Of a stretch of DNA of 64,000 bases, positions 25,933 through 40,628 are shown one piece after another. Under the pieces are notes generated by a model, which did no database searches, was not told where the DNA came from, and saw nothing but the letters and a program-made list of their open reading frames with translations. Position numbers and translations under genes: made by a program. The stretch lies in assembly GCA_001442985.1 (NCBI GenBank), contig LDYB01000019.1:62001-126000 (forward strand), given 5' to 3'. The stretch's first letter is position 1. Each line of letters opens with the position of its first letter. The DNA comes from Armatimonadetes bacterium DC (lineage in GTDB: Bacteria > Armatimonadota > Fimbriimonadia > Fimbriimonadales > GBS-DC).

Positions 25933-28050
25933 CTACGCCTCCTCCTCAATCCTGTCCATCACATCACTCACCGTGCCCCAGCGATAGAACGCGGGCAGAA
26001 TCTGAATCACCGCGTCCATCTGCTCGAACAGGTCTTTGACAAAACTGAAATGCGGGTTGTTCGCCCCGTAAAGGCTGAACCGTGCTGGATCAAAGGACGC
26101 CAGCGGATCCGCAGGGTTCACCATCGATGCCCAGTATGGTGGGTGCTGGTATGGCGCTTCGTAATGCACCGCACAACCCAACCATGCATTCACCGCCGTC
26201 GTCAGCACCCGCTGATACCCACGCCACGCCATCGCCTCGTACTGCGTCCCCCAGTTCGTCGTCAAATCGTTCGCAATCGTAAAAGTCGGGCGCACCACAC
26301 TCGTCAGCGTCCCATGATAAAACCCTCCTGCATCACTGCCCGGAATCTCCAGCTGCCGTTCAATCGGCAAGACCAGCCCGTTCCACACGCGCGACGCAGG
26401 CACACGCTGTGCGTCGGAACCACGACGCGCAGACGCCTCGTGCGCCCGTATCCCACGCACGCCTTTCTCCCGCAACACGCGCCAGTAGCCCTGACCGCCC
26501 GTACTGTTCGCCGCGGCGTTCGCATAGCGGTGTATCCCACAAAAAGCGTCCGGGAAGCCCAGCCCATCCACCACATACGACTCCCCGCGCTCAATCACAA
26601 TCTTCGCAAGGTGATAATCCGCTGTGCGGTGCGGCGCACTCAAATCGCCCGTGCCTGTCATCTCCTCACTCACACCCAGCGGGATATCATAATAGACCCT
26701 GCCATCCATCACGACCTCTAAAGTACCAGCAGGAGGCGTCCCAGAATAGGCTTCTTTCAGCACGACACGCCCTGTCCGACGACGCACATCGTTCGGCTTG
26801 CCCAGCGTCCAGCGATCCGTCGCCGCATGACGCCCTATCGTCGCGTTGTAGGTCGCGTTCCCCCAGCCCTCGCTGCCCATCACCACATGGTCGTGAATGC
26901 AGACGGGCGTGGCACGGGCATGGTTCATCCGAATCTTCTGTAGAATCTGCTGCGCTATCTGCCGTTCCGATTCGGAGAGAACCTGTGCGACCTCGCTCTC
27001 TTCTGCTGTGCTATAGGTTCCGCTCGTCCAATAACTGCCCACCGTCCCGCAGATGATGTGCGTGTTCCGCGTGTTGGCAAAATCGATCAGCCAGTCCCAG
27101 AGGGCACGCAGATTCTGCAACCGTTCTGTGAGCGTGCCGGGCGTGTTGTAAATCTGCATGAAGTGGTCGATTTCCCAATACACAGGGAACGGACGGCGTG
27201 GCAAGACCCCTGCGCATTTCAAGCCGTAGGGAAGCCAGAAAGTGTAGAGCGCCGCGATGGAACGCAAGTTGCGGGTATCGCTCCCTGAAATGGGCAACAG
27301 GTAATGCTGGGCGTAGCGGTAGGCGACAATTGCGTCGTTGCCGAAACTGCGCCCACCCGAATAAGCCGATTCGGGATAATCGGGCACCGCAAGAATCTCG
27401 CCTTTAGGCATGGTCTGCCCGCGATAGGGGAAGTTCGTGCTGGCGAGCGCGGCATGCTTTGCGAGGTCTAAACGCGCGAAGTAAATCTGAATAGTGCCAG
27501 AGGTCTCATGCGCCCAGAAGCTGGTGGTGTAGACCCGTCGGTTCTCGCGCAGGAGTCGCACGGGCGTGCCCCCACGACAGGCAACATTCCACTGAGCCGT
27601 CAGAACCGAAGTGCCGCTACTGACCCCTGTTTCGGCTTCATAGAAAGTGTTCGGGTCGCTGGGGTTCCAGCGCACGAGGGGGAAGTCGCTGGGCAGGCGG
27701 GTATTGAGTGCGCTGCGGCTGGCGTGCAGGTGCATGCCGAAAAACAGCACGGGCGGGTCGGCGTCGGTGTTCCAGTTGAGCCATGTGGCTGTGCCGTCGT
27801 TGGGCGAGTTGCCGGTTGAACCGAACCGTACATGATTGAACACCAGCACGGCGTCGAACTGGCGCAGGTAGTCGCGGGCGGTGGCGCTATCGGGCACAAT
27901 CGTGCCCGCGCCTTTCGTATGGAGCTGGGTTGTGGACTGATAATAGGCGAGTTCGGTCTCGTAGCCCCAGCGCTGGAGCATGCGCAGGACGGATGCGGGA
28001 GGGGTATAGTTGCTGGCTGGGTTCGTCCAGACAATCAGCAGTTTCGGCAT
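25933..28050 (-). CDS. Large putative hydrolase at the end of the capsid cassette
   Basis: This 705-residue protein was not assigned to a family. Residues 1-130 look like a Rossmann or flavodoxin-type fold (KLLIVWTNPASNYTPPASVLRMLQRWGYETELAY...FDAVLVFNHVRFG). The middle holds PVYWEIDHFMQ and VCIHDHVVMG, acidic and histidine motifs like those of metal-dependent polysaccharide deacetylases. No signal peptide is seen. It begins directly after the stop of the upstream small gene with a GGGGTGAG site and so is part of the phage-like operon. It may be a tail-associated depolymerase, a cargo enzyme or a host gene captured by the cassette. The deacetylase-like idea is inference. Confidence 0.5.
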   Translation of the reverse strand: MPKLLIVWTNPASNYTPPASVLRMLQRWGYETELAYYQSTTQLHTKGAGTIVPDSATARDYLRQFDAVLVFNHVRFGSTGNSPNDGTATWLNWNTDADPPVLFFGMHLHASRSALNTRLPSDFPLVRWNPSDPNTFYEAETGVSSGTSVLTAQWNVACRGGTPVRLLRENRRVYTTSFWAHETSGTIQIYFARLDLAKHAALASTNFPYRGQTMPKGEILAVPDYPESAYSGGRSFGNDAIVAYRYAQHYLLPISGSDTRNLRSIAALYTFWLPYGLKCAGVLPRRPFPVYWEIDHFMQIYNTPGTLTERLQNLRALWDWLIDFANTRNTHIICGTVGSYWTSGTYSTAEESEVAQVLSESERQIAQQILQKIRMNHARATPVCIHDHVVMGSEGWGNATYNATIGRHAATDRWTLGKPNDVRRRTGRVVLKEAYSGTPPAGTLEVVMDGRVYYDIPLGVSEEMTGTGDLSAPHRTADYHLAKIVIERGESYVVDGLGFPDAFCGIHRYANAAANSTGGQGYWRVLREKGVRGIRAHEASARRGSDAQRVPASRVWNGLVLPIERQLEIPGSDAGGFYHGTLTSVVRPTFTIANDLTTNWGTQYEAMAWRGYQRVLTTAVNAWLGCAVHYEAPYQHPPYWASMVNPADPLASFDPARFSLYGANNPHFSFVKDLFEQMDAVIQILPAFYRWGTVSDVMDRIEEEA

Positions 28051-28616: not shown

Positions 28617-29546
28617 TTACGCGCCTGTGCCCATCAGGGCGGTCTGCCACAGCCCGTAGCCGACGCCGTAGCGAGCGCGCACGCCGTAGTAGACCACATC
28701 GCGCATGAACATCTGCTCGCTATCGGGGCGGTCTAACGCGGCGAACTCGAGGGGCACATCGCGCCGTTCCTGAAAGATAATCGCCCGCACGGCACGCGAG
28801 GTGTCCAGCAGGAACCACTTGTTCTCATCCGCGCCCGTGAGGTAGGGCGTGACGATCAGGCGCAGCTTGCCCTGCAACACATTCCGATAGGGCGTGTAGT
28901 TGCCTGTCGTGTTGGCTTGCACCACAATCGGCGATTCCAGAAGCTCCATCGCCAGCCAGTGGAGTTTGGGTCCTACCAGCAGCGTGTCGGGCATGATGCC
29001 CATCGGGCGTCCGCGATCGTCTTTGAACTGCATCATCTGCGCAATCGCTTGCTGGAGCGCGTTCGTGGAGAGCGCGCCGCTGAAGATGTTGCTCTGGGTG
29101 CCGCTCTCACCGTCGCGATGGTTGGTGGCAAAGAAGGGCTTGCCATCGTAGGTCTTCTCGGTCGTGCCTTTGAGCAGCGCCTCAATCACCAGTTGCTCGC
29201 GATGGCGCACCGCCTCGGCGGCGAGGTCGCGCACGCGCATGCGAATCATATCGTACTGCTCATCTTCCAGAGCGCGGCGCTCCACGGCAATCGAGGCTTC
29301 CCACACCTTATCGCTAATCGTGTATTCGTAGGCTTTCAGCCCCGTCGGCGTGCGCTCATCTACAAACTCCCGCATCACAGGTACGGTACCGAGCCAGCCG
29401 TATTTCTGAACGGGTAGGTTCGTGCGCACAATCGTGGCAATCTGCGGCACAATACTGGCGCGGTCTTCTGAGCGATAGGCGTTGAAAAACTCCGTGCGGA
29501 GTCCCGCCTCAATCAGCGACATCAAATCGCTTCGGACTAACGGCAT
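28617..29546 (-). CDS. Major capsid protein, Mu gpT-like
   Basis: The 309-residue protein fits the Mu-like major head subunit (gpT) family of HK97-fold capsids: an N-terminal LIEAGLRTEFFNAY, an acidic-rich FVDERTPTGLKAYEYTISDKVWEASIAVERRALEDEQYD, RVRDLAAEAVRHREQLVIEALL, the FFATNH turn, DTLLVGPKLHWLAMELLES and a C-terminal YYGVRARYGVGYGLWQTALMG. A perfect AGGAGG site precedes the ATG. It lies after protease/scaffold and decoration genes, the normal head-gene order. No HK97 crosslinking pair could be confirmed. The frame is intact, without stops or frameshifts. Confidence 0.85.
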   Translation of the reverse strand: MPLVRSDLMSLIEAGLRTEFFNAYRSEDRASIVPQIATIVRTNLPVQKYGWLGTVPVMREFVDERTPTGLKAYEYTISDKVWEASIAVERRALEDEQYDMIRMRVRDLAAEAVRHREQLVIEALLKGTTEKTYDGKPFFATNHRDGESGTQSNIFSGALSTNALQQAIAQMMQFKDDRGRPMGIMPDTLLVGPKLHWLAMELLESPIVVQANTTGNYTPYRNVLQGKLRLIVTPYLTGADENKWFLLDTSRAVRAIIFQERRDVPLEFAALDRPDSEQMFMRDVVYYGVRARYGVGYGLWQTALMGTGA

Positions 29547-29558
29547 AGGCTGACCTCC

Positions 29559-29972
29559 TTACTGAACGAAGTTATCGATGCGAATGCGCAGGCGCGTGTC
29601 GTCCACAATCTCCAGCAGCGTGCCGACCTGCACATTGTGCGTGGTGCTTTTGGCGACCTCGTTATCGGATACGGCGCGCACGGTGGTTCCCACATCCGCC
29701 TGTGTGAAGGTGCCGACGCGATGATAGATAAAACTCCCGCGTTTAATCACCCGACAGCGTTTCGCGCCGTTCTCCCCGTTCAGGTTGTCCACGCTTTCAA
29801 ACGCGACACCCACGAAGCGCAAGCCACTGGTATCGCTGGCGGGCACGAGATACCCACCGGAGTTCACACACACCAGCGCGCCTTTCCAGATTTGCGTGTT
29901 GCCCGCGACGGGATAGGCGACCAGCAAGCCTTCGCGCTCATGCGCCTCATACGGTTCGCTTAATGCAGGCAT
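29559..29972 (-). CDS. DUF2190-like capsid decoration protein
   Basis: The 137-residue protein is beta-rich and fits the DUF2190/capsid-cement kind of protein that sits between scaffold and capsid genes in many Mu-like and Siphovirus heads: a SEPYEAHEREGLLVAYPVAGNTQIWKGALVCVNSGGYLVPA start, then FVGVAFESVDN, and a C-terminal NVQVGTLLEIVDDTRLRIRIDNF. An AGGAGG site precedes the ATG, which lies 1 bp after the stop of the protease gene. It likely binds the capsid outer surface. Confidence 0.7.
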   Translation of the reverse strand: MPALSEPYEAHEREGLLVAYPVAGNTQIWKGALVCVNSGGYLVPASDTSGLRFVGVAFESVDNLNGENGAKRCRVIKRGSFIYHRVGTFTQADVGTTVRAVSDNEVAKSTTHNVQVGTLLEIVDDTRLRIRIDNFVQ

Positions 29973-29973
29973 C

Positions 29974-30768
29974 TTATCGCACCTCCTTCTGTCGCAGAAT
30001 CTCGTCGGGGTTCAGGTCAGGGAACACCTGTTGCAAGAACGCCAGCTCTTCAGCGCTGAAATCGGGAGCAGGGGTGTTGGGCACGGGCGCGGTCTCGGCG
30101 AGCCACTCGCGTTTGGGCAGGCTCTCCACAAACTGGCGGAATAGCGCACTCACGCTCTGCTCCTGCCCATGAAAGCGCACGGCAAGCGTCTCGTCGCTCA
30201 TCAGCAACGCCTCGGCGAGGGGTGCCTGCACGGGAGCAATCCGTCCTTCTGAAACCCAGCGTTCCACCTGCGCGTGCGCCTGAAACTGTCGGAGCTGGAC
30301 TTCCAGCGTACGAACGCGCTCGGTCAGGGCAGACTCGTGAGCCGTCTCACAATCCTGCGTTTCGGGGTTCCAATCGGCTGGAAGGTTCGTCATCGTTTGA
30401 GCCTCCTTCGTTTGGGCGAACAGCTGGGCGCTCGCCACGCGGGGATTGCCCGTAACCGAAACCTCGTGAAGCGTGTTCAGGGCGGGACTCAGCCCCACGC
30501 TCAGCCCACGCACTCGAAGGCGACGCAAAAGCGCATCCGCTTCGGGAAACAGCGCGAGCAAGCCGTACAGCGAGTCGCCCTCCACCCACACTTTCTGCAC
30601 CCAGCCCAGCAGCACGGGCGAGGGGCAGTGCTCCACGAAGATCGGCACAGGGGCGCGAAAGTTGCGCACTATCTGCTGCAGCTGCTGGCGCGTCAAAACA
30701 ATCCGCTTGTCGGGATAGACGCCCGCCTCCAGCAGCTTCGCCTGACGAAACACCCAGTCAGTTCGCAT
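29974..30768 (-). CDS. Mu gpI-like prohead protease with scaffold domain
   Basis: The 264-residue protein fits the Mu-like I protein family. The N-terminal half has VYPDKRIVLTRQQLQQIVRNFRAPVPIFVEHCPSP, then VWVEGDSLYGLLALF and RGLSVGLSPALNTLHEVSVTGNPRVASAQ, carrying the histidine and serine expected for the protease. The second half is charged and helical (RVRTLEVQLRQFQAHAQVERWV), the scaffold part that is normally cut off in head assembly. A terminal acidic/Pro-rich tail follows. It is the first gene of the cassette; no good ribosome binding site is visible upstream of its ATG, and no terminase or portal gene precedes it. Confidence 0.75.
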   Translation of the reverse strand: MRTDWVFRQAKLLEAGVYPDKRIVLTRQQLQQIVRNFRAPVPIFVEHCPSPVLLGWVQKVWVEGDSLYGLLALFPEADALLRRLRVRGLSVGLSPALNTLHEVSVTGNPRVASAQLFAQTKEAQTMTNLPADWNPETQDCETAHESALTERVRTLEVQLRQFQAHAQVERWVSEGRIAPVQAPLAEALLMSDETLAVRFHGQEQSVSALFRQFVESLPKREWLAETAPVPNTPAPDFSAEELAFLQQVFPDLNPDEILRQKEVR

Positions 30769-31958: not shown

Positions 31959-32405
31959 CTATTTCCCCAACAGCTCCCGGCGCACTTCGTCAAAAGTCAG
32001 CACCTTGCCCTTGAGCCGTTGCGCCTCCTGCTCCGCCGCCTCGCGCGACGGCACTGCCAGCACCCGACTGCCCATCGGCGTCTGCAGGTCGTCCGCGCGC
32101 ACATAAAACGCCTGCGTGCCGTCCAGCCATTCGTCGGGCTTGTGATAGTTCGGCACGAAATAGCGTTTCGGTGTGAGCTTCTCGCGCTCCACATCCAGAA
32201 ACATACAGTTGAAGTCGTCGTACTTGCGGAACTCACCGTCGGGCGTTTCAATCGCGCAGCCGAACTGCGGCTCGTTGATAATCATCCGGCAGTTGGCGCA
32301 GGCGTCCTCGCCATACCGAATGCGCGGCAGATTTTCTGAAGCGCCACAGCCCGAAAACGCCAGCACGCCCAGCCAGCCCAACAATATCCAACCGTAGATT
32401 TTCAT
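31959..32405 (-). CDS. nosL: NosL, copper chaperone lipoprotein of N2O reduction
   Basis: The 148-residue protein has a lipobox (GVLAFSGC) and the NosL motif CANCRMII (C-x-x-C-x-M), the Cu(I) site that delivers copper for the CuZ centre of nitrous oxide reductase. The remaining RKYDDFNCMFLDVEREKLTPKRYFVPNY and FYVRADDLQTPMGS strands fit the family. The ATG at 32405 overlaps the stop of the NosB-D-F-Y gene (ATGA), so it is co-translated with it. It acts on the outer side of the cytoplasmic membrane. The longer in-frame extension to 32699 is antisense coding noise. Confidence 0.92.
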   Translation of the reverse strand: MKIYGWILLGWLGVLAFSGCGASENLPRIRYGEDACANCRMIINEPQFGCAIETPDGEFRKYDDFNCMFLDVEREKLTPKRYFVPNYHKPDEWLDGTQAFYVRADDLQTPMGSRVLAVPSREAAEQEAQRLKGKVLTFDEVRRELLGK

Positions 32406-35400
32406 TCGCGCGCACCTCGCTTTGCGAACCATGTCCAGGCTATCAGCAGCGGCACTGCCAGCCACGCCAGCAACGCGCCCACGCCGACCCACAGCACGCC
32501 ATCGCCGAATCGGTCGCGGGCATACAGCCCTGCCGAACCCAGCACCTCCAGATTGCCCTCCATCAACTGAATGACGGCTATCTTGAACACCTGCAGCGGG
32601 TTCAAAAAGGTCAGCCACAGCAGGGTCTGCGCTTTGAGCTGCAGGGCAATCGCCGTGCCGATAATGCCCAGATCGCTGATGAACACCAGCGCCAGCCACA
32701 TCAGGAGCGCAATCCCCACTGCTGTCGCGCCGCGTTTTACCAGCGTGGAGACCCCCATCCCCAGCGCCAGACAGACCCAGCCCAGCAGCAGGGTCAGCCC
32801 CATCTGACCTGCGAATTGCCCTACGGGCATATCTGCGCCGCTCATAAACAGCAGAAGCCCGCTACTGCCGAACCCCACCAGCACCGCCGAACCCAACAGC
32901 ACCATCCCGCCCAGAAACTTGCCCCAGATTAAATCCGTCGGGCTAATGGGGTGGCTCAGCAGGGTGTAGAGGGTCTGCTGGTCGCGCTCGGAGGCGACGC
33001 TCATCGCGCCCAGAATCAGCCCGATCAACGGCACAATCAGCAGCGAGAGGTTCAGCAGGCTCGCAAAAGTGCGCCCAAAGCCCGCCACACCGCCACTCTC
33101 GCCCGTGCCCGTCAGCCCAAAGGCGGTCAGGATGACCGACAGCACGGTGAAAATCCCCGCCAGCAACAGAAACCACCGATTGCGCCGCGAGTCCCGAATC
33201 TCCTTGACTGCCAGCAGACGCACTTTCTCCAGCAGCGAAGGGAGCGCCAGCGAGTTCTTCATACGGGGAACCTCGTCGGCGGAAGCTTCACCTGCGAAGC
33301 GCATCGTTTCAGGAATTTGCGACCAGTCGGGCGACTCCACAGGCGCGCGCCATTCGTAGTCCAGCACCTCAATACCCGAATCCAGCAGCAGTTTCAGGGG
33401 GTCCACACGCTTCGCTGGCAGATGATGCACCACAACCATGCCGTCAAACGCTTCCACGCTATAGCCCGCTTCCCGCAACAGCTGCTGGGCGCGCTCCGAG
33501 TCGCTGGGCGGCACCAGCAAGCGCAGGCTCCCGCGCTGAAGCCAGAGCTGGGCAAAGTCGCGTCCTGTCAGGTCGGCGACCTTTTTGCCATATTCCAGCA
33601 CAATTACACGGTCCGCCAGCGCGCGCACCTCCGCAAACTGGTGCGTGCAAAACACCAGCGTCTTGCCCTCTGCCTTGAGGCGACGCAACAGCTCCAGCCA
33701 CTCGGCGCGTGCCGCCGTGTCCAGATGCGCCGTCGGCTCGTCCAGCAGCAGAATCGGTGGGTCCGAGAGCAACGCCAGTGCCAGCGCCAGTTTCTGCTTG
33801 AGACCCCCCGAAAGCGCGTGCACAGGCTTCTCGACGTGCGGCTCCAGCTCCCACTCGCGCAGCAGGGTTTCCACACGCTCCGCCGCGACGCCCCGCAGGC
33901 GTGCGTAAAAATGCATGGTCTCCAGCACCGTCTGATCCGGGTGCAGGTGAATCAGCTGCGGCACATAGCCCACCTGCTGGCGCACGGCAAGGCTCTCCCG
34001 ATCCGCCGCATAGCCCAGCACGCGCGCTTCGCCCTCAAACCGTAACAGCCCCAGCAGACAGCGCAAAATGGTGGTTTTGCCCGCGCCATTCGCGCCCCAC
34101 AACGCCACCGTCTCGCCCTCGCGCACCACGAACGAGACCGAATCGACGGCTCGCACATTGCCAAACCGTCGGGTCAGGTTAGAGACCTTTATCACCGCAC
34201 CCGCCAATTGGACTGCCATCACCCGTTTCCCAGTTCGCTCTTTCTGCTTGCGAAACGCCTGCACGCGCGGTCGCGCCACTCCCAGCACGCCCAGCGTCAG
34301 TGTGAGACTCGCAAAAAGCAGCCATCCCTGCCTGGAGGCGACCCGTTTGCTGGTGTAAGGCGGGGGCAGGGGACGCATACGCGGCGCCTCATCCCGCACC
34401 AGCGGACGCGGCGCAAACAACGGGAACACACGCGCCCCGAAATCCAGCGCCTGCGCCGACGGACTGTAGGTCAACAACCGCAACGCCGCGTTCTGAGACG
34501 CCAGCAAATCAAACACCTTCACCGCCTGATACGCGACATCGCCTGTGCCGTCGCCGTCGGCGTCATAACCGCTGTAGTCGCTCCAGTAATTGCCCCTCCA
34601 TGATACCCCGCTCACCGAATGGGGACGCTCCAGAGAAACCTGCTCCCAGTTCTCAATAAAAGCGTTTTCCTCAAAGCGGTTCGTCTTGACCGCCAGATGG
34701 AGATACACCCCCACATCGTTGCGAATCAGCCAGTTGCCCCGATACACCCCTTCGCCGCTGTCCACAAAAATCCCCATGCGGTTATCCGCAATCAGGTTCT
34801 GCTCCACCTGAAGCCCATAGCCGTCCTTAATCCCTAACCCCATCCCGCTGGGACCCCGATTGGCGCGAATCTGATTTTTCGCCACGCGCACGCCATCACT
34901 ATACATAATGTAGACACCCACCGAGTTGTTTTCCAGAATGTTGCCCTCCACCACGCTGTTGCTACAATACATAAAATGCACACCATACCGCGACTGGCGC
35001 ACCACATTGTTCCGAATCTGTACCCCCTCCGAGTACCAGAACACGAGGTCGCGCCCCCCAACGACCGTGTTTTGCTCCACAATTGCGTGATGGCTGTACC
35101 AGATACGAATCTGGTCGCCGCGTCGGGCAATCGGCAGGTCATGCGAAAATATCATGTTGCGCCGCACCACCGTGCGATGTGCATAGTCCAGATGCACGCC
35201 AAACAACACCCTCTCGATGCGATTGTCTTCCACGATGCAGTCGGGCGCTTCCACATGGATGCCGCTGTCCTGGCTGTTCAACACGGTGCCGCTGTTTCGA
35301 ATCACAAAGCCCCTCACCACACTGTGAGGGGCTTTCAGCGTGAGAACGGTGCCCACGCCCCCACCGTCTAAGATGGGGGCGTGTTCGCCGAGGAGGTACA

Positions 35401-36217
35401 GCGGCTTCTCCACCACCCAGTGCCCGTGATGGATTCCGCCCACGACGCGAATCGTATCCCCAGCCTGTGCCCGCTGGAGGGCTTCGCTCAGGCTCAGAGT
35501 GCCCCCCGAAGCAACCACCCATTCACGCGCATGCAGGGGCGCCAGGCTGACAAGCAGCAGCCCCAGCGACGCAACTCCTGCGGCAGCACGACCGGGCATA
35601 GAGGCTTGATACCCCGCCAGCACACGCTCACACCGAACCCGTCGCGCGGTCGCCCACACTGCCAGCACGCTGGCAACCACCACCAGCGCGTACCCCAGCC
35701 ACGGCCAGGACACCACGCCGAACTGGGCAATCTTGCCAGGTCCCACAAGCGGTGGCACGAACGGCTTCACCATCGCGCTGAGGGGCGCCTTCGGGTCCAG
35801 ATTCAGCCCGAACTCCCGCAGCCAGTAATACAAATCCGCAGGGAACACCACCAGCACCGCCAGCACAGGCAGAATCAGCATCACCTGAAGCCAGCGCGGA
35901 CGCCGCACAAAGACCGACGCCAGCAACGCCAGAGCAATCAGGCTCAAACCGGGGATGGAAATCTTGCGCTCAAACGGCGCCGCTTCGCCCAGTGGGCGCA
36001 TCCCGATATAATGGTTCAACCCATCCACTTCGCGAACATCGCCCTGGGCGCCCGTAACATGAATGTAAACATACAGCCCTTCGGGGTACTGGGGCGCGAC
36101 AATCTCAATCCGCCAGTAGGGAAGGAAAATCGATGCCACTACCAGCAGCGACGCCAGCAACAACATCACTTTATTCAAGCCCTCTCCGGGGCAATCAAAA
36201 ACCTGTGTTCGGGTCAT
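32402..36217 (-). CDS. nosDFY: NosB-NosD-NosF-NosY single-chain fusion
   Basis: This continuous 1271-codon frame joins parts normally made as separate proteins. Residues 1-205 have four membrane helices and LNHYIGM, like the NosB membrane protein of clade II clusters. Residues 210-600 hold a helix and the NosD right-handed beta-helix (repeated N-x-I/V turns, DADGDGTGD near 557). Residues 675-970 are the NosF ATPase: GANGAGKT Walker A (711-718), LSGGLKQK signature (805-812), LLLDEP Walker B and the H-loop (FCTHQ). Residues 986-1271 are the six-helix NosY permease. NosDFY delivers material for CuZ maturation. ATG 36217 sits 8 nt after GGAGG; GTG 36226 is the alternative. nosZ precedes and nosL overlaps. 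Confidence 0.9.
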   Translation of the reverse strand: MTRTQVFDCPGEGLNKVMLLLASLLVVASIFLPYWRIEIVAPQYPEGLYVYIHVTGAQGDVREVDGLNHYIGMRPLGEAAPFERKISIPGLSLIALALLASVFVRRPRWLQVMLILPVLAVLVVFPADLYYWLREFGLNLDPKAPLSAMVKPFVPPLVGPGKIAQFGVVSWPWLGYALVVVASVLAVWATARRVRCERVLAGYQASMPGRAAAGVASLGLLLVSLAPLHAREWVVASGGTLSLSEALQRAQAGDTIRVVGGIHHGHWVVEKPLYLLGEHAPILDGGGVGTVLTLKAPHSVVRGFVIRNSGTVLNSQDSGIHVEAPDCIVEDNRIERVLFGVHLDYAHRTVVRRNMIFSHDLPIARRGDQIRIWYSHHAIVEQNTVVGGRDLVFWYSEGVQIRNNVVRQSRYGVHFMYCSNSVVEGNILENNSVGVYIMYSDGVRVAKNQIRANRGPSGMGLGIKDGYGLQVEQNLIADNRMGIFVDSGEGVYRGNWLIRNDVGVYLHLAVKTNRFEENAFIENWEQVSLERPHSVSGVSWRGNYWSDYSGYDADGDGTGDVAYQAVKVFDLLASQNAALRLLTYSPSAQALDFGARVFPLFAPRPLVRDEAPRMRPLPPPYTSKRVASRQGWLLFASLTLTLGVLGVARPRVQAFRKQKERTGKRVMAVQLAGAVIKVSNLTRRFGNVRAVDSVSFVVREGETVALWGANGAGKTTILRCLLGLLRFEGEARVLGYAADRESLAVRQQVGYVPQLIHLHPDQTVLETMHFYARLRGVAAERVETLLREWELEPHVEKPVHALSGGLKQKLALALALLSDPPILLLDEPTAHLDTAARAEWLELLRRLKAEGKTLVFCTHQFAEVRALADRVIVLEYGKKVADLTGRDFAQLWLQRGSLRLLVPPSDSERAQQLLREAGYSVEAFDGMVVVHHLPAKRVDPLKLLLDSGIEVLDYEWRAPVESPDWSQIPETMRFAGEASADEVPRMKNSLALPSLLEKVRLLAVKEIRDSRRNRWFLLLAGIFTVLSVILTAFGLTGTGESGGVAGFGRTFASLLNLSLLIVPLIGLILGAMSVASERDQQTLYTLLSHPISPTDLIWGKFLGGMVLLGSAVLVGFGSSGLLLFMSGADMPVGQFAGQMGLTLLLGWVCLALGMGVSTLVKRGATAVGIALLMWLALVFISDLGIIGTAIALQLKAQTLLWLTFLNPLQVFKIAVIQLMEGNLEVLGSAGLYARDRFGDGVLWVGVGALLAWLAVPLLIAWTWFAKRGARE

Positions 36218-36234
36218 TTTCATCACCTCCAGCG

Positions 36235-36281: not shown

Positions 36282-38270
36282 TCACGGCTCCACCAACAGG
36301 TACCCCATCATCTCCAGGTGGAGGGCGGAGCAGAACTCGGTGCAGTAGAAGGGATAGACTCCCTCTTTATCCGCCACGAATCGAACCGTGACGGTTTCAC
36401 CGGGTTCCAGACTCGCGCCGATTCCATACCCGGGGATGGCGAAGCCGTGAGTGGCGTCGCGCGTGCGCTCCGTGTTGGTAAGATGCCACACCACTTTCTG
36501 CCCCTTCTTCACCTTCACATGCTCAGGGGTAAAGTGGCTGCGGATAACGGTCGAGTAGACATACACGGTGTCGCCCTTAACCTCAACGCGCGGCTTGTCC
36601 AGACCGGGTTCAGTCGCTTTCGCCTGAGTGTGCGGATCCCAACCGACATCAGGGTAGGTCTCCCACGACTTCAGGCGATCCGCGCGGATAATCTGGGCGT
36701 AGTGCGGCTCGCCCATGCCCAGCGGCATATCCGCCAGCAAGCGCATCGTCTCGCCTGTGCCGCTGATTTCAATCAGCTGCAGGTTCTGTGGCAGGAGCGG
36801 ACCCGTGGTCAGGAAACGATCCACCGACCACTTGTTCAGCGCCACGAGATATTTGCCAGCAGGTTTCACCGTGTCGCCTTCTGCCGCGGCGAGGTGCCCG
36901 ATGTTGTAGTGGGTCTGAACCTTGCCCACCAGCTTCCAGGGCTCTTCGGGCGCCTTGTATTTGCAGCCGCCCAGCGTCCAGCGCGCGACTGCCGTGTCCA
37001 GGAAGAGACTCGTGTAGGCGTAACCCTTATCGTCAAACTGGGTGTGCAGCGGACCCAGACCCAGCTCCACCTGCGCCTCTTTGGTCGCGTCAAAGCGAAG
37101 CACGGGCACACCATACGGGTCGGTCTTCTCGTAGTCCTTGTTCTGGATGGCTTGTTTGATCTTCTCGATGTTGTAGACCGTTACATGGGGATCCAGCTTC
37201 CCGCCGACCACGATGTGCTTGCCGCACGGGCACACATCGACGCCATGCGGGCTTTTCGGCTCCGGCGTGAAGAACAACACGCCTCCTGCCACCGCCTCTT
37301 TGAGCGGAATGACACGGAAGCCGTTGATGCGAACGAACTTACCCGCCTTCACCAGCTGCTCTGCCTGCTTCCAGTTGATAATGTGCAGGTAGTCCATGTC
37401 GTTCTGGGAGACCCCAGCCTCAAACGGCGGGTTGCCTTTCTCCACACCGCCTGTCGCCATCTCGGTGTTGAACGAGTTCACAAACACCCAGCCGTCGCTC
37501 GCCGCCTTGCCGCAGTCCGCAAGGTCCTGCCAGTAGGGGGGAAGCTCTACCGCAAACGACTCCTCCAGCACAATCCGACCACGCTTGCGGTCGAACTTGT
37601 AGAAGGTAATCAGCCCACGGTACTCCTCCTTGTAGCGCTCAAGCGGGGCATACCGGTGCCCCAGCGGAACGCCATACTGCGAAACCTCCACCACATACTC
37701 CGTGTTGGGTGTTACGAACGCCGCGCCATGGTTATTGTTGAACACCGGGTTGCGCACAATCTGCTTGGTCTCCCAGTCCTTCAGGTCAATCACCGCCACG
37801 CGCCCGTTCAGCTTGTCGCCAATAAACAGAAACTCACCGTCATACTCTCCGTTGGTCTCGCTCAGGGCAGGGTGGTGCGTGTCCGCAGGGGGATAAGGTC
37901 CGCGTCCGTACACCTCGTGAATTGCGGTGTTCTCCACCCCAAACCCATAGCCGCTCCACGAATCGGGCACAAACACAGGGATTACCTTCAGGATTCGCAT
38001 CGAGGGGATGCCAATCGCAATCACCTGTCCGCTGTGTCCACCCGAAGCGAACATCACAAACTCGTCGTGCTTCCCACCCGGCACATAGGTGGCTAACGCG
38101 CCGTAGATGTCTTCTGGGGTCAGCCCACGCTCACGCGCAACCGCCAGCGCATCCGCAGGCAAACCCGACGGTAAACTGGGCGAACGGCTACCACGTACCC
38201 AAAACGCAATCGCCACAATCAGGAGCAGAACCACTCCTGCAATCAGGTACCGTGTTGTAGAGCCTCTCAT
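36282..38270 (-). CDS. nosZ: Nitrous oxide reductase NosZ (clade II type)
   Basis: NosZ reduces N2O to N2 in the envelope. The 662-residue product has a plain hydrophobic signal anchor (YLIAGVVLLLIVAIAFWV) with no twin-arginine motif, which fits the Sec-exported clade II form. CuZ histidine segments are visible (NNNHGAAF, SPHGVDVC, GPLHTQF, HYNIGHLAAAEGD). The C-terminal cupredoxin domain has the CuA motif CTEFCSALHLEM (C-x3-C-S-x2-H-x2-M). An AGGAGGAGAT site precedes the ATG. A strong promoter and a palindromic operator lie upstream. It heads the nos operon. Confidence 0.96.
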   Translation of the reverse strand: MRGSTTRYLIAGVVLLLIVAIAFWVRGSRSPSLPSGLPADALAVARERGLTPEDIYGALATYVPGGKHDEFVMFASGGHSGQVIAIGIPSMRILKVIPVFVPDSWSGYGFGVENTAIHEVYGRGPYPPADTHHPALSETNGEYDGEFLFIGDKLNGRVAVIDLKDWETKQIVRNPVFNNNHGAAFVTPNTEYVVEVSQYGVPLGHRYAPLERYKEEYRGLITFYKFDRKRGRIVLEESFAVELPPYWQDLADCGKAASDGWVFVNSFNTEMATGGVEKGNPPFEAGVSQNDMDYLHIINWKQAEQLVKAGKFVRINGFRVIPLKEAVAGGVLFFTPEPKSPHGVDVCPCGKHIVVGGKLDPHVTVYNIEKIKQAIQNKDYEKTDPYGVPVLRFDATKEAQVELGLGPLHTQFDDKGYAYTSLFLDTAVARWTLGGCKYKAPEEPWKLVGKVQTHYNIGHLAAAEGDTVKPAGKYLVALNKWSVDRFLTTGPLLPQNLQLIEISGTGETMRLLADMPLGMGEPHYAQIIRADRLKSWETYPDVGWDPHTQAKATEPGLDKPRVEVKGDTVYVYSTVIRSHFTPEHVKVKKGQKVVWHLTNTERTRDATHGFAIPGYGIGASLEPGETVTVRFVADKEGVYPFYCTEFCSALHLEMMGYLLVEP

Positions 38271-38543: not shown

Positions 38544-38633
38544 TGGCGTCAACGCGGTGCAATGCTGTCGCTTGCTTGCCTTCCCAGACAGCTTCTAACA
38601 GGAGTCCACACTGCAAAAGCGTATGTAAACTCT

Positions 38634-40628
38634 ATGCACTCTCAAGACCTGATGACGGTTTTGCGTGAGCGGTTTGGCTTTGACGCCTTCCGCGACGGTC
38701 AGGAGGAGGCAATTCTCGCGGCGCTGGAGGGCAGGCGTGTCTTGCTGATTCAACCCACAGGCTGGGGCAAAAGTCTGGTCTATCAGATGATTGCCGCCCT
38801 CCGCGGGCTGACGCTCGTTTTCTCGCCTCTGCGGGCTTTGATGCGCGATCAGGTGCGCCAGGCATGTGAGCGCTACGCCCTGCGAGCCGATACCGTCAAC
38901 TCCGACATGGACGAGGAGGAGCAACAGGCGGTTCTGGAGCGTGCCGTAAACGGTCAAATTGACCTGCTTTATATCGCACCTGAACGACTCAGCAATCCCC
39001 TCTGGCAGGAATACCAGTTGCGTTTGCCCATCCGTGCTGTGGTGATTGACGAGGCGCACTGTGTCTCGGTGTGGGGGCACGACTTCCGTCCTGAATACCG
39101 CCGCATTGTCCACCTCGTGCGCTTGCTGCCCCCGGAAGTGCCCGTCGTTGCCGTGACGGCGACGGCAACCCCACGCGTAGAACAGGATGTGCGTGAGCAA
39201 ATCGGAGAGCCGTTCCACATTCTGCGCGGAGCCCTGACGCGCCCAAATCTCCGCCTCTTTGTGCAGCGCGTCAACTCCGACGCCGAAAAACTGGTCTGGC
39301 TGGACCACCTGCTCCGCCTTCTGCCTGGTAGCGGACTCGTCTACACCGCAACGCGCGGCAACAGCGAGTGGGTTGCCCAGTACCTTCAGGAGCGCGGGCA
39401 TACGGTGGCATACTATCACGCAGGCTTGGGGGCAGAGCGAACTGCCCTCGAACAGCAACTCATCCGAAACGAACTCAAAGCGCTGGTCTGCACGAACGCA
39501 CTCGGCATGGGGCTGGACAAACCCGACCTGCGCTTTGTGATCCATGCCGAAACACCCGCCTCGCCCCTGCACTACTATCAGGAAATCGGGCGCGCGGGTC
39601 GCGACGGCGAACCCTCATGGTGCGTCTTGCTGGCTCACCCCGACGACAAAATCCTGCAGGAGAACATGATTCGCAACAGTCGTCCCGCCCCAAACGCCTA
39701 TCAGCAGGTCTACACCCTGCTCCAGCAATCGCCCATGCGCGAGCGCGAACTCTCGCTTGAAACAGGGCTAACCCAGAACAGCCTGCGCACCATTCTGTAC
39801 GACCTGATGGATCAGGGGTTAATCACGCGCGATAGCGAGCGCTACTATCGGGCAATCAGACGCGGGCAAATTGACCACTTCCACTATCAGGCAATACTGG
39901 AGGCGAAACTGCACGACCTGGAGGCAATGCTCGCCTACTGGGAGACCTCAGAATGTCGCATGCGCTACCTCTGCCGCTTTCTGGGGGATGAGACTGCCCG
40001 GAACTGCGGCGTATGCGACCGCTGCCAGCAGAAAGGATTGCCGCCTCCTGAACCCGCCCTGTTCGCCGAAGCAGAGCGTTTTGCCTATCATCCGCCGCTT
40101 CCTTTAAGTGGAGTCTATCAGAAAGAACCTGTCTATGTGCAGGGCTATGCCCTGAGCTACTACGGAGGCACGCCCATCGGCGAAGTCGTGCATCGGTGCA
40201 AGTATGAAAGTGGAGGCGCGCTCCCCGATTGGGTTATTCAGCAGGCGGCGACCTGTGTCCGCGAGCGATTTCCCCTGCAACAGATTGACGCTCTCGTGCC
40301 TATCCCGCCCAGCGTCAGCGGCGGTTTCGTGGAAGATTTCGCGAGACGCCTTGCCCAGCAACTCGGCGTGCCTTATATGCCCGTTTTGCAAAAAACACGC
40401 GCCACCCGCCCGCAGAAAGAGTGGACGAACAAGGTTCAGAAAGCGGAGAACCTGAAAGATGCGCTCCTGTGTACCCAGCCCCTGAACGGCAAGCGCCTGC
40501 TGGTGGTCGACGATGTGTCGGATTCGGGAGTCACGCTGGAGGTAGCGGGTAAAATTCTGAAGAAGGCGGGCGCAGGCGCGCTCTATGCGTTCTGTCTCGC
40601 ACGCACACGCCACCGGGGGGATTTATAG
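38634..40628 (+). CDS. RecQ-family helicase fused to a ComF-type phosphoribosyltransferase
   Basis: The 664-residue protein begins with a RecQ superfamily 2 helicase: TGWGKS (42-47), DEAHCVSVWGHDFRPEY, TATATP, HYYQEIGRAGRDG and a RecQ zinc site (C-x-x-x-x-x-C ... CGVCDRC). After about residue 480 comes a phosphoribosyltransferase like ComFC: QQIDALVPIPPSVSGGFVEDFARRLAQQLGVP, then LLVVDDVSDSGVTLEVAG with the PRPP loop. ComFC works in DNA uptake with a helicase (ComFA), and here RecQ takes that place. No HRDC domain is seen. The ATG at 38634 lacks a close ribosome binding site, and ATG 38652 is possible. The DprA-like gene follows 2 bp later. Confidence 0.85.
   Translation: MHSQDLMTVLRERFGFDAFRDGQEEAILAALEGRRVLLIQPTGWGKSLVYQMIAALRGLTLVFSPLRALMRDQVRQACERYALRADTVNSDMDEEEQQAVLERAVNGQIDLLYIAPERLSNPLWQEYQLRLPIRAVVIDEAHCVSVWGHDFRPEYRRIVHLVRLLPPEVPVVAVTATATPRVEQDVREQIGEPFHILRGALTRPNLRLFVQRVNSDAEKLVWLDHLLRLLPGSGLVYTATRGNSEWVAQYLQERGHTVAYYHAGLGAERTALEQQLIRNELKALVCTNALGMGLDKPDLRFVIHAETPASPLHYYQEIGRAGRDGEPSWCVLLAHPDDKILQENMIRNSRPAPNAYQQVYTLLQQSPMRERELSLETGLTQNSLRTILYDLMDQGLITRDSERYYRAIRRGQIDHFHYQAILEAKLHDLEAMLAYWETSECRMRYLCRFLGDETARNCGVCDRCQQKGLPPPEPALFAEAERFAYHPPLPLSGVYQKEPVYVQGYALSYYGGTPIGEVVHRCKYESGGALPDWVIQQAATCVRERFPLQQIDALVPIPPSVSGGFVEDFARRLAQQLGVPYMPVLQKTRATRPQKEWTNKVQKAENLKDALLCTQPLNGKRLLVVDDVSDSGVTLEVAGKILKKAGAGALYAFCLARTRHRGDL

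Follow-up and report, generated by a model that had tools for sequence, protein, structure and literature searches.

A conserved NosD-NosF-NosY fusion frame, joined to NosB in some genomes, in the clade II nos operon of family GBS-DC

Genes and domains at the locus

The window, a stretch of 64,000 nucleotides from a draft genome of 2.85 Mb, carries a clade II nos operon, with a Sec-dependent NosZ accompanied by NosB. On the minus strand, one stop-free frame runs from an ATG at 36217 to 32402, comprising 1,271 codons plus the stop codon (1,274 codons if counted from the first GTG); its product has 1,271 residues and a mass of 139 kDa. A preliminary description of this DNA had placed a single 1,271-codon frame with the domain order NosB, NosD, NosF, NosY at 32402 to 36217. 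Frame, profile, and PDB matches confirmed this reading, and the coordinates are correct; the gene lies on the minus strand, and the plus strand of the same interval contains several stops in the frame read. The following features were identified.

31959 to 32405, minus strand: nosL (PF05573; CANCRM motif), with an ATG that overlaps the fusion's stop codon TGA
32402 to 36217, minus strand: NosB-NosD-NosF-NosY fusion frame, open, domain order B, D, F, Y
32417 to 33214, minus strand: NosY permease domain (PF12679; 7o0y_D)
33347 to 34192, minus strand: NosF ATPase (Pfam and PDB match; ABC motifs)
34274 to 34330, minus strand: membrane helix, residues 630 to 648, linking periplasmic NosD to cytosolic NosF
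34373 to 35491, minus strand: NosD beta-helix, residues 243 to 615 (TIGR04247; PF05048)
35528 to 35584, minus strand: hydrophobic segment before NosD, residues 212 to 230, ending in APLHA followed by REW; former NosD signal peptide, with a possible signal peptidase I site between the two
35633 to 36217, minus strand: NosB domain, four membrane helices; LNHYIGM at residue 67, FGLNLDP at residue 136
36226 to 36230, minus strand: Shine-Dalgarno-like GGAGG, 8 bases 5' of the ATG at 36217, read in the sequence
36282 to 38270, minus strand: nosZ, clade II (Sec-dependent) N2O reductase (TIGR04246), with the CuA motif CTEFCSALHLEM present

The fusion gene sits between the clade II nosZ upstream, whose product scored 837 bits against TIGR04246 (cut-off, 625), and nosL, whose product scored 46 bits against PF05573 (cut-off, 24). 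Clade II nosZ-B-D-F-Y-L clusters have the same content and order, a Sec-type NosZ, and a NosB with the LNHYIGM motif, whereas NosB, NosD, NosF, and NosY are merged into one frame in the window.

The NosB label, which had previously been based on position and helix pattern, was correct and has a broader basis than that. The N-terminal domain, encoded between nosZ and nosD, is a polytopic membrane protein with four predicted helices (residues 14-32, 86-104, 109-127, and 173-191; 12-29, 81-101, 108-138, and 174-202 in the AlphaFold model) and contains LNHYIGM, the published NosB signature (PMC9697520). A profile built from such proteins also finds stand-alone NosB adjoining NosD in most other loci. 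The domain had no match in Pfam or the PDB, hence there was no curated model to apply.

The NosD domain scored 386 bits against TIGR04247, above the curated cut-off of 300. NosF scored 100 bits against PF00005 and contains a Walker A motif (GANGAGKT, residue 708), LSGGLKQ (802), a Walker B motif (ILLLDE, 822), and the CTH of the H-loop (857); it matched 7o0y_B with an E value of 2.1e-36, many ABC ATPases matching as well. NosY, located within the nos cluster, scored 102 bits against PF12679 and matched 7o0y_D with an E value of 1.4e-27. The NosD, NosF, and NosY chains of PDB 7o0y, which together with related entries we take to be the NosDFY ABC transporter of Pseudomonas stutzeri, all match the fusion by sequence and in the same order along the chain. 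That transporter has the same three protein families and the same functional context; it consists of three separate proteins in a ratio of 1:2:2, whereas GBS-DC has one chain. The claim that each domain retains its key motifs was therefore borne out by the motifs and scores above.

Other genes in the window include Mu-like phage head genes (28617 to 30768, minus strand), which lie downstream of nosL between cellular genes and comprise the major head protein gpT (PF10124, 214 bits), a virion structural protein, and a head maturation protease. They are adjoined by a gene for a 705-residue protein (25933 to 28050) that has no Pfam or PHROG match. At 38562 to 40628, upstream of a dprA-like gene, a RecQ-like helicase and a C-terminal phosphoribosyltransferase (PF00156) share one 688-residue frame.

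Fusions in the GBS-DC family and in other lineages

A check of the junctions in related genomes, as the preliminary description had proposed, covered four nos-bearing relatives: Bacterium HR15, TGS_ARM5, and the Fimbriimonadales metagenome genomes KatS3mg016 and KatS3mg018 from a hot spring. KatS3mg018 is a circular complete genome assigned to family GBS-DC, Fimbriimonadia (PMC9671151); the window accordingly belongs to the Fimbriimonadales (Armatimonadota). The four relatives, with identities to the window of 51 to 66%, have the same D-F-Y joints and reinforce the single frame; NosD-F-Y is one frame in 5/5 nos-bearing family genomes found, including the closed genome AP024673. NosB is also joined in three of the five (window, HR15, and TGS_ARM5), giving frames of 1,271 to 1,300 residues. 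In KatS3mg016 and KatS3mg018, a separate NosB gene is found 16 to 30 bases before a NosD-F-Y frame of 1,058 to 1,066 residues. The F-Y linkers of the five genomes measure 43, 55, 43, 49, and 43 residues, all in frame, and both alternative frames of each contain stops. Judged from these sequences, chance cannot plausibly account for an F-Y joint kept in frame across five genomes. Two stretches that resemble each other, NTPTKGEGSPL and NTPHKGEGSRF, lie in the linkers of HR15 and KatS3mg018; they could stem from an interspersed repeat whose copies are now translated.

True NosD was detected in 8 of 291 Armatimonadota genomes. NosD and NosF were joined in all eight, and a joined NosY was seen in the GBS-DC family alone. 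Outside this family, NosB-NosD-NosF occurred in genomes G121 and G122 and NosD-NosF in G219; NosY is encoded on its own in G121 and G219, and in G122 the contig stops short of NosY. A NosD-alignment scan of 84,980 genomes gave 80 loci, and with extra loci from other searches 98 were classified, a set that is biased towards relatives of the query and includes one near-duplicate pair. It contained D-F only (45 loci), D alone (35), B-D-F (7), B-D (6), B-D-F-Y (3), and D-F-Y (2). NosD was thus joined to NosF in 57 of the 98, commonly in Chloroflexota, Planctomycetota, Calditrichota, and others.

In more even draws, NosD scored above the cut-off in 22/400 Chloroflexota, 17/392 Planctomycetota, 101/296 Bacteroidota, and 8/193 Omnitrophota. 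Frames of at least 690 residues accounted for 13 of the 22 in Chloroflexota and none of the 101 in Bacteroidota, frame length alone being no proof of fusion. No further NosY fusion was found in the draws of these four phyla. Two long NosD frames were rejected as four-way fusions due to out-of-frame upstream extension: that of G762 (Planctomycetota, 1,328 amino acids) is NosD alone, and the real state of that of G509 (Chloroflexota, 1,148 amino acids) is D-F.

State changes on the NosD tree numbered at least 15 for D-F, 7 for B-D, and one for F-Y, and the five F-Y genomes formed one supported set (99, quick tree). On this tree, NosY joining has a single origin, and it is present in no other sampled lineage. 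The many gains and losses of the D-F joint (15 changes) point to a minor functional role of fusion.

Two further loci deserve mention for their layout. A Poribacteria locus (L067, 543 to 4109) encodes, within a single 1,188-residue frame, two tandem NosB domains and then NosD and NosF. The complete genome of Candidatus Lucifugimonas marina JH1073 (CP046147), whose record is not labelled as a metagenome genome, encodes a NosD-NosF fusion of 783 residues. We found no published description of these NosD-NosF or NosD-F-Y fusions in a literature search that also took in N2O in connection with Fimbriimonadales and that left subscription papers largely outside. A NosB-NosL fusion is found in Dyadobacter and some Flavobacterium (PMC9697520); it also joins nos accessory genes including NosB, with a different partner and without NosD, NosF, and NosY.

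Membrane topology and the NosB/NosD junction

Every D-F fusion (57/57) has a hydrophobic helix between NosD and NosF, and nearly all stand-alone NosD proteins in the sampled groups end in such a helix. Because of this helix, a D-F fusion consists of a periplasmic domain, one membrane crossing, and a cytosolic ATPase, as topology requires. The joining helix is present in the AlphaFold model of the window protein (residues 428 to 446 of the modelled piece). The solved NosD (7o0y) is different, as its match stops 13 residues short of the C terminus of the chain, hence it has no membrane helix after the beta-helix, unlike the fusion and most sampled clade II-like NosD. A hydropathy estimate of the window protein puts NosB in an in-out-in-out-in arrangement, with the fifth segment leading out, NosD outside, the sixth segment returning to the cytosolic side, where NosF lies, and NosY within the membrane. 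The chain order would thus be topologically consistent, running from NosB with four transmembrane helices through a fifth segment derived from the NosD signal peptide to NosD, a transmembrane helix, NosF, and NosY.

The segment that acts as signal peptide in separate NosD persists at the NosB/NosD joint of the fusions. In a crude motif count, made with no trained predictor, a signal-peptidase-like motif was present at this joint in 12 of 16 fusions versus 54 of 79 separate NosD proteins and about 15% at NosB helices. Because the motif is kept, NosB is expected to be often cut off, and signal peptidase cleavage may remove it from the fusion. The preliminary description of NosB as part of one polypeptide holds for the frame; it overlooked this possible removal at the B/D site. 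Such a cut has a precedent, in proteins unrelated to Nos, in the cytochrome b/c1 polyprotein FbcH of Bradyrhizobium, where cleavage at an internal signal peptide separates a membrane protein from an exported one; our literature search returned no account of FbcH.

It is less probable, though a serious contender, that the four-domain chain remains whole and the transporter keeps NosB as a lasting component. NosB is joined in the window, HR15, and TGS_ARM5, its joining has arisen independently in Omnitrophota, Poribacteria, Planctomycetota, and Acidobacteriota, and a membrane-spanning fifth segment would satisfy topology without a cut. However, the signal-peptidase-like motif is retained at the joint and two close relatives encode NosB separately. 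In addition, the AlphaFold model of NosB-NosD (pLDDT 87.9), which reproduces the four NosB helices, shows a low-confidence junction at residues 203 to 227.

Subunit ratio and proposed assembly

PDB chain counts give a ratio of 1 NosD to 2 NosF to 2 NosY (16 chains in 16 entries, 30 in 15, and 34 in 17, respectively). This ratio is out of reach for a fusion unless further subunits are supplied, and none of the five family genomes was found to have a second NosY gene that could mend it. A D-F-Y chain without free subunits would give 2:2:2, or leave one NosD idle. The stoichiometric conflict pointed out in the preliminary description is therefore sound by the chain counts; it is not special to this chain, since NosD-NosF fusions in many phyla raise the same problem. 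Overlooked there was that internal starts probably yield free NosF in some of the D-F fusions elsewhere.

An ATG with a good Shine-Dalgarno sequence occurs at the NosF start in 18 of 57 D-F fusions. Control windows have one in about 4% of cases and separate NosF genes in 21 of 41; these are motif counts that assume the usual anti-Shine-Dalgarno sequence in these phyla. Free NosF is probably made in addition from part of the D-F fusions elsewhere, as these motifs indicate. Such a site is present in 0/5 genomes of the GBS-DC family, and because NosF start signals are absent there, 1:1:1 looks obligatory in this family. In the window, a fair Shine-Dalgarno sequence (-6.6 kcal/mol) precedes an ATG at residue 986, ahead of NosY; this site, from which a free NosY might be started, is not conserved. 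Another ATG, at residue 667 ahead of NosF, has a weaker one (-4.2 kcal/mol). No conserved internal NosY start was found across the five F-Y genomes, and the KatS3mg016 F-Y linker is devoid of any ATG.

We regard it as rather unlikely that one frame gives several products, with internal initiation at NosF or NosY, or proteolysis of the linkers, supplying extra free NosF and NosY so that 1:2:2 is kept. The excess of NosF-start sites over control windows and the two ATGs in the window point that way, whereas the family's lack of NosF sites and the ATG-free KatS3mg016 linker point the other. Moreover, if domains were started internally, linkers should gather stops or frame changes, and none have been gathered. 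A decayed or unused operon whose stops were lost by drift is very improbable: nothing but the odd layout favors it, while the ATPase motifs, NosD family score, NosZ CuA motif, and NosL are all intact and conservation across genera is high, which agrees with the earlier view, likewise drawn from sequence, that the fusion looks functional. That an assembly or sequencing error erased stops or frameshifts has a negligible chance of being right despite the draft state of the window genome (26 contigs), since independent genomes, one of them closed, keep the same joints at 51 to 66% identity, which excludes chance and rules out an artefact for D-F-Y.

The D-F-Y chain was modelled by AlphaFold with a pLDDT of 87.5 and a pTM of 0.77. 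The F-Y part of the model aligns with ABCG half-transporters over at least 600 columns, which suggests a working cis arrangement. In structural comparison, the D-F-Y model matched ABCG half-transporters (ABCG2 and ABCG5/G8) best; they are dimeric and carry a nucleotide-binding domain (NBD) and then a transmembrane domain (TMD) in one chain. They differ in lacking a periplasmic beta-helix arm and in their substrates, and with 16 to 19% identity the resemblance is structural only, the fusion not belonging to ABCG at the sequence level.

On balance, we favor a functional clade II nos operon whose transporter for loading NosZ with copper is produced as a single chain, with a releasable NosB and a D-F-Y homodimer bearing two NosD arms. 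Signal peptidase would most likely cut after the fifth segment and release NosB. NosD-F-Y would remain uncut and pair with a second copy of itself; each chain would have its NBD ahead of its TMD, as in ABCG half-transporters, and the homodimer would bear two NosD arms where the solved complex has one. From what is known of the family, this single-chain transporter would take copper from NosL and pass it to NosZ, as NosDFY does. With somewhat less assurance, at a little short of an even chance, GBS-DC NosZ is matured by such a 2:2:2 homodimer and D-F fusions across phyla behave likewise, so that 1:2:2 would be one of two architectures.

The fusion is a real and conserved variant of the known NosBDFY system, wider in occurrence than the preliminary description had it and qualified with regard to NosB and stoichiometry. 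No biological step other than N2O reductase is known to act as a sink for the strong greenhouse gas N2O, and the way in which NosDFY loads its copper centres is known structurally from a single organism. In a naturally occurring single-chain version, the gene itself sets the ratio of subunits, which tests the need for one NosD arm per transporter. The widespread NosD-NosF fusions, such as that of Lucifugimonas marina JH1073, make the ratio question testable outside the GBS-DC family.
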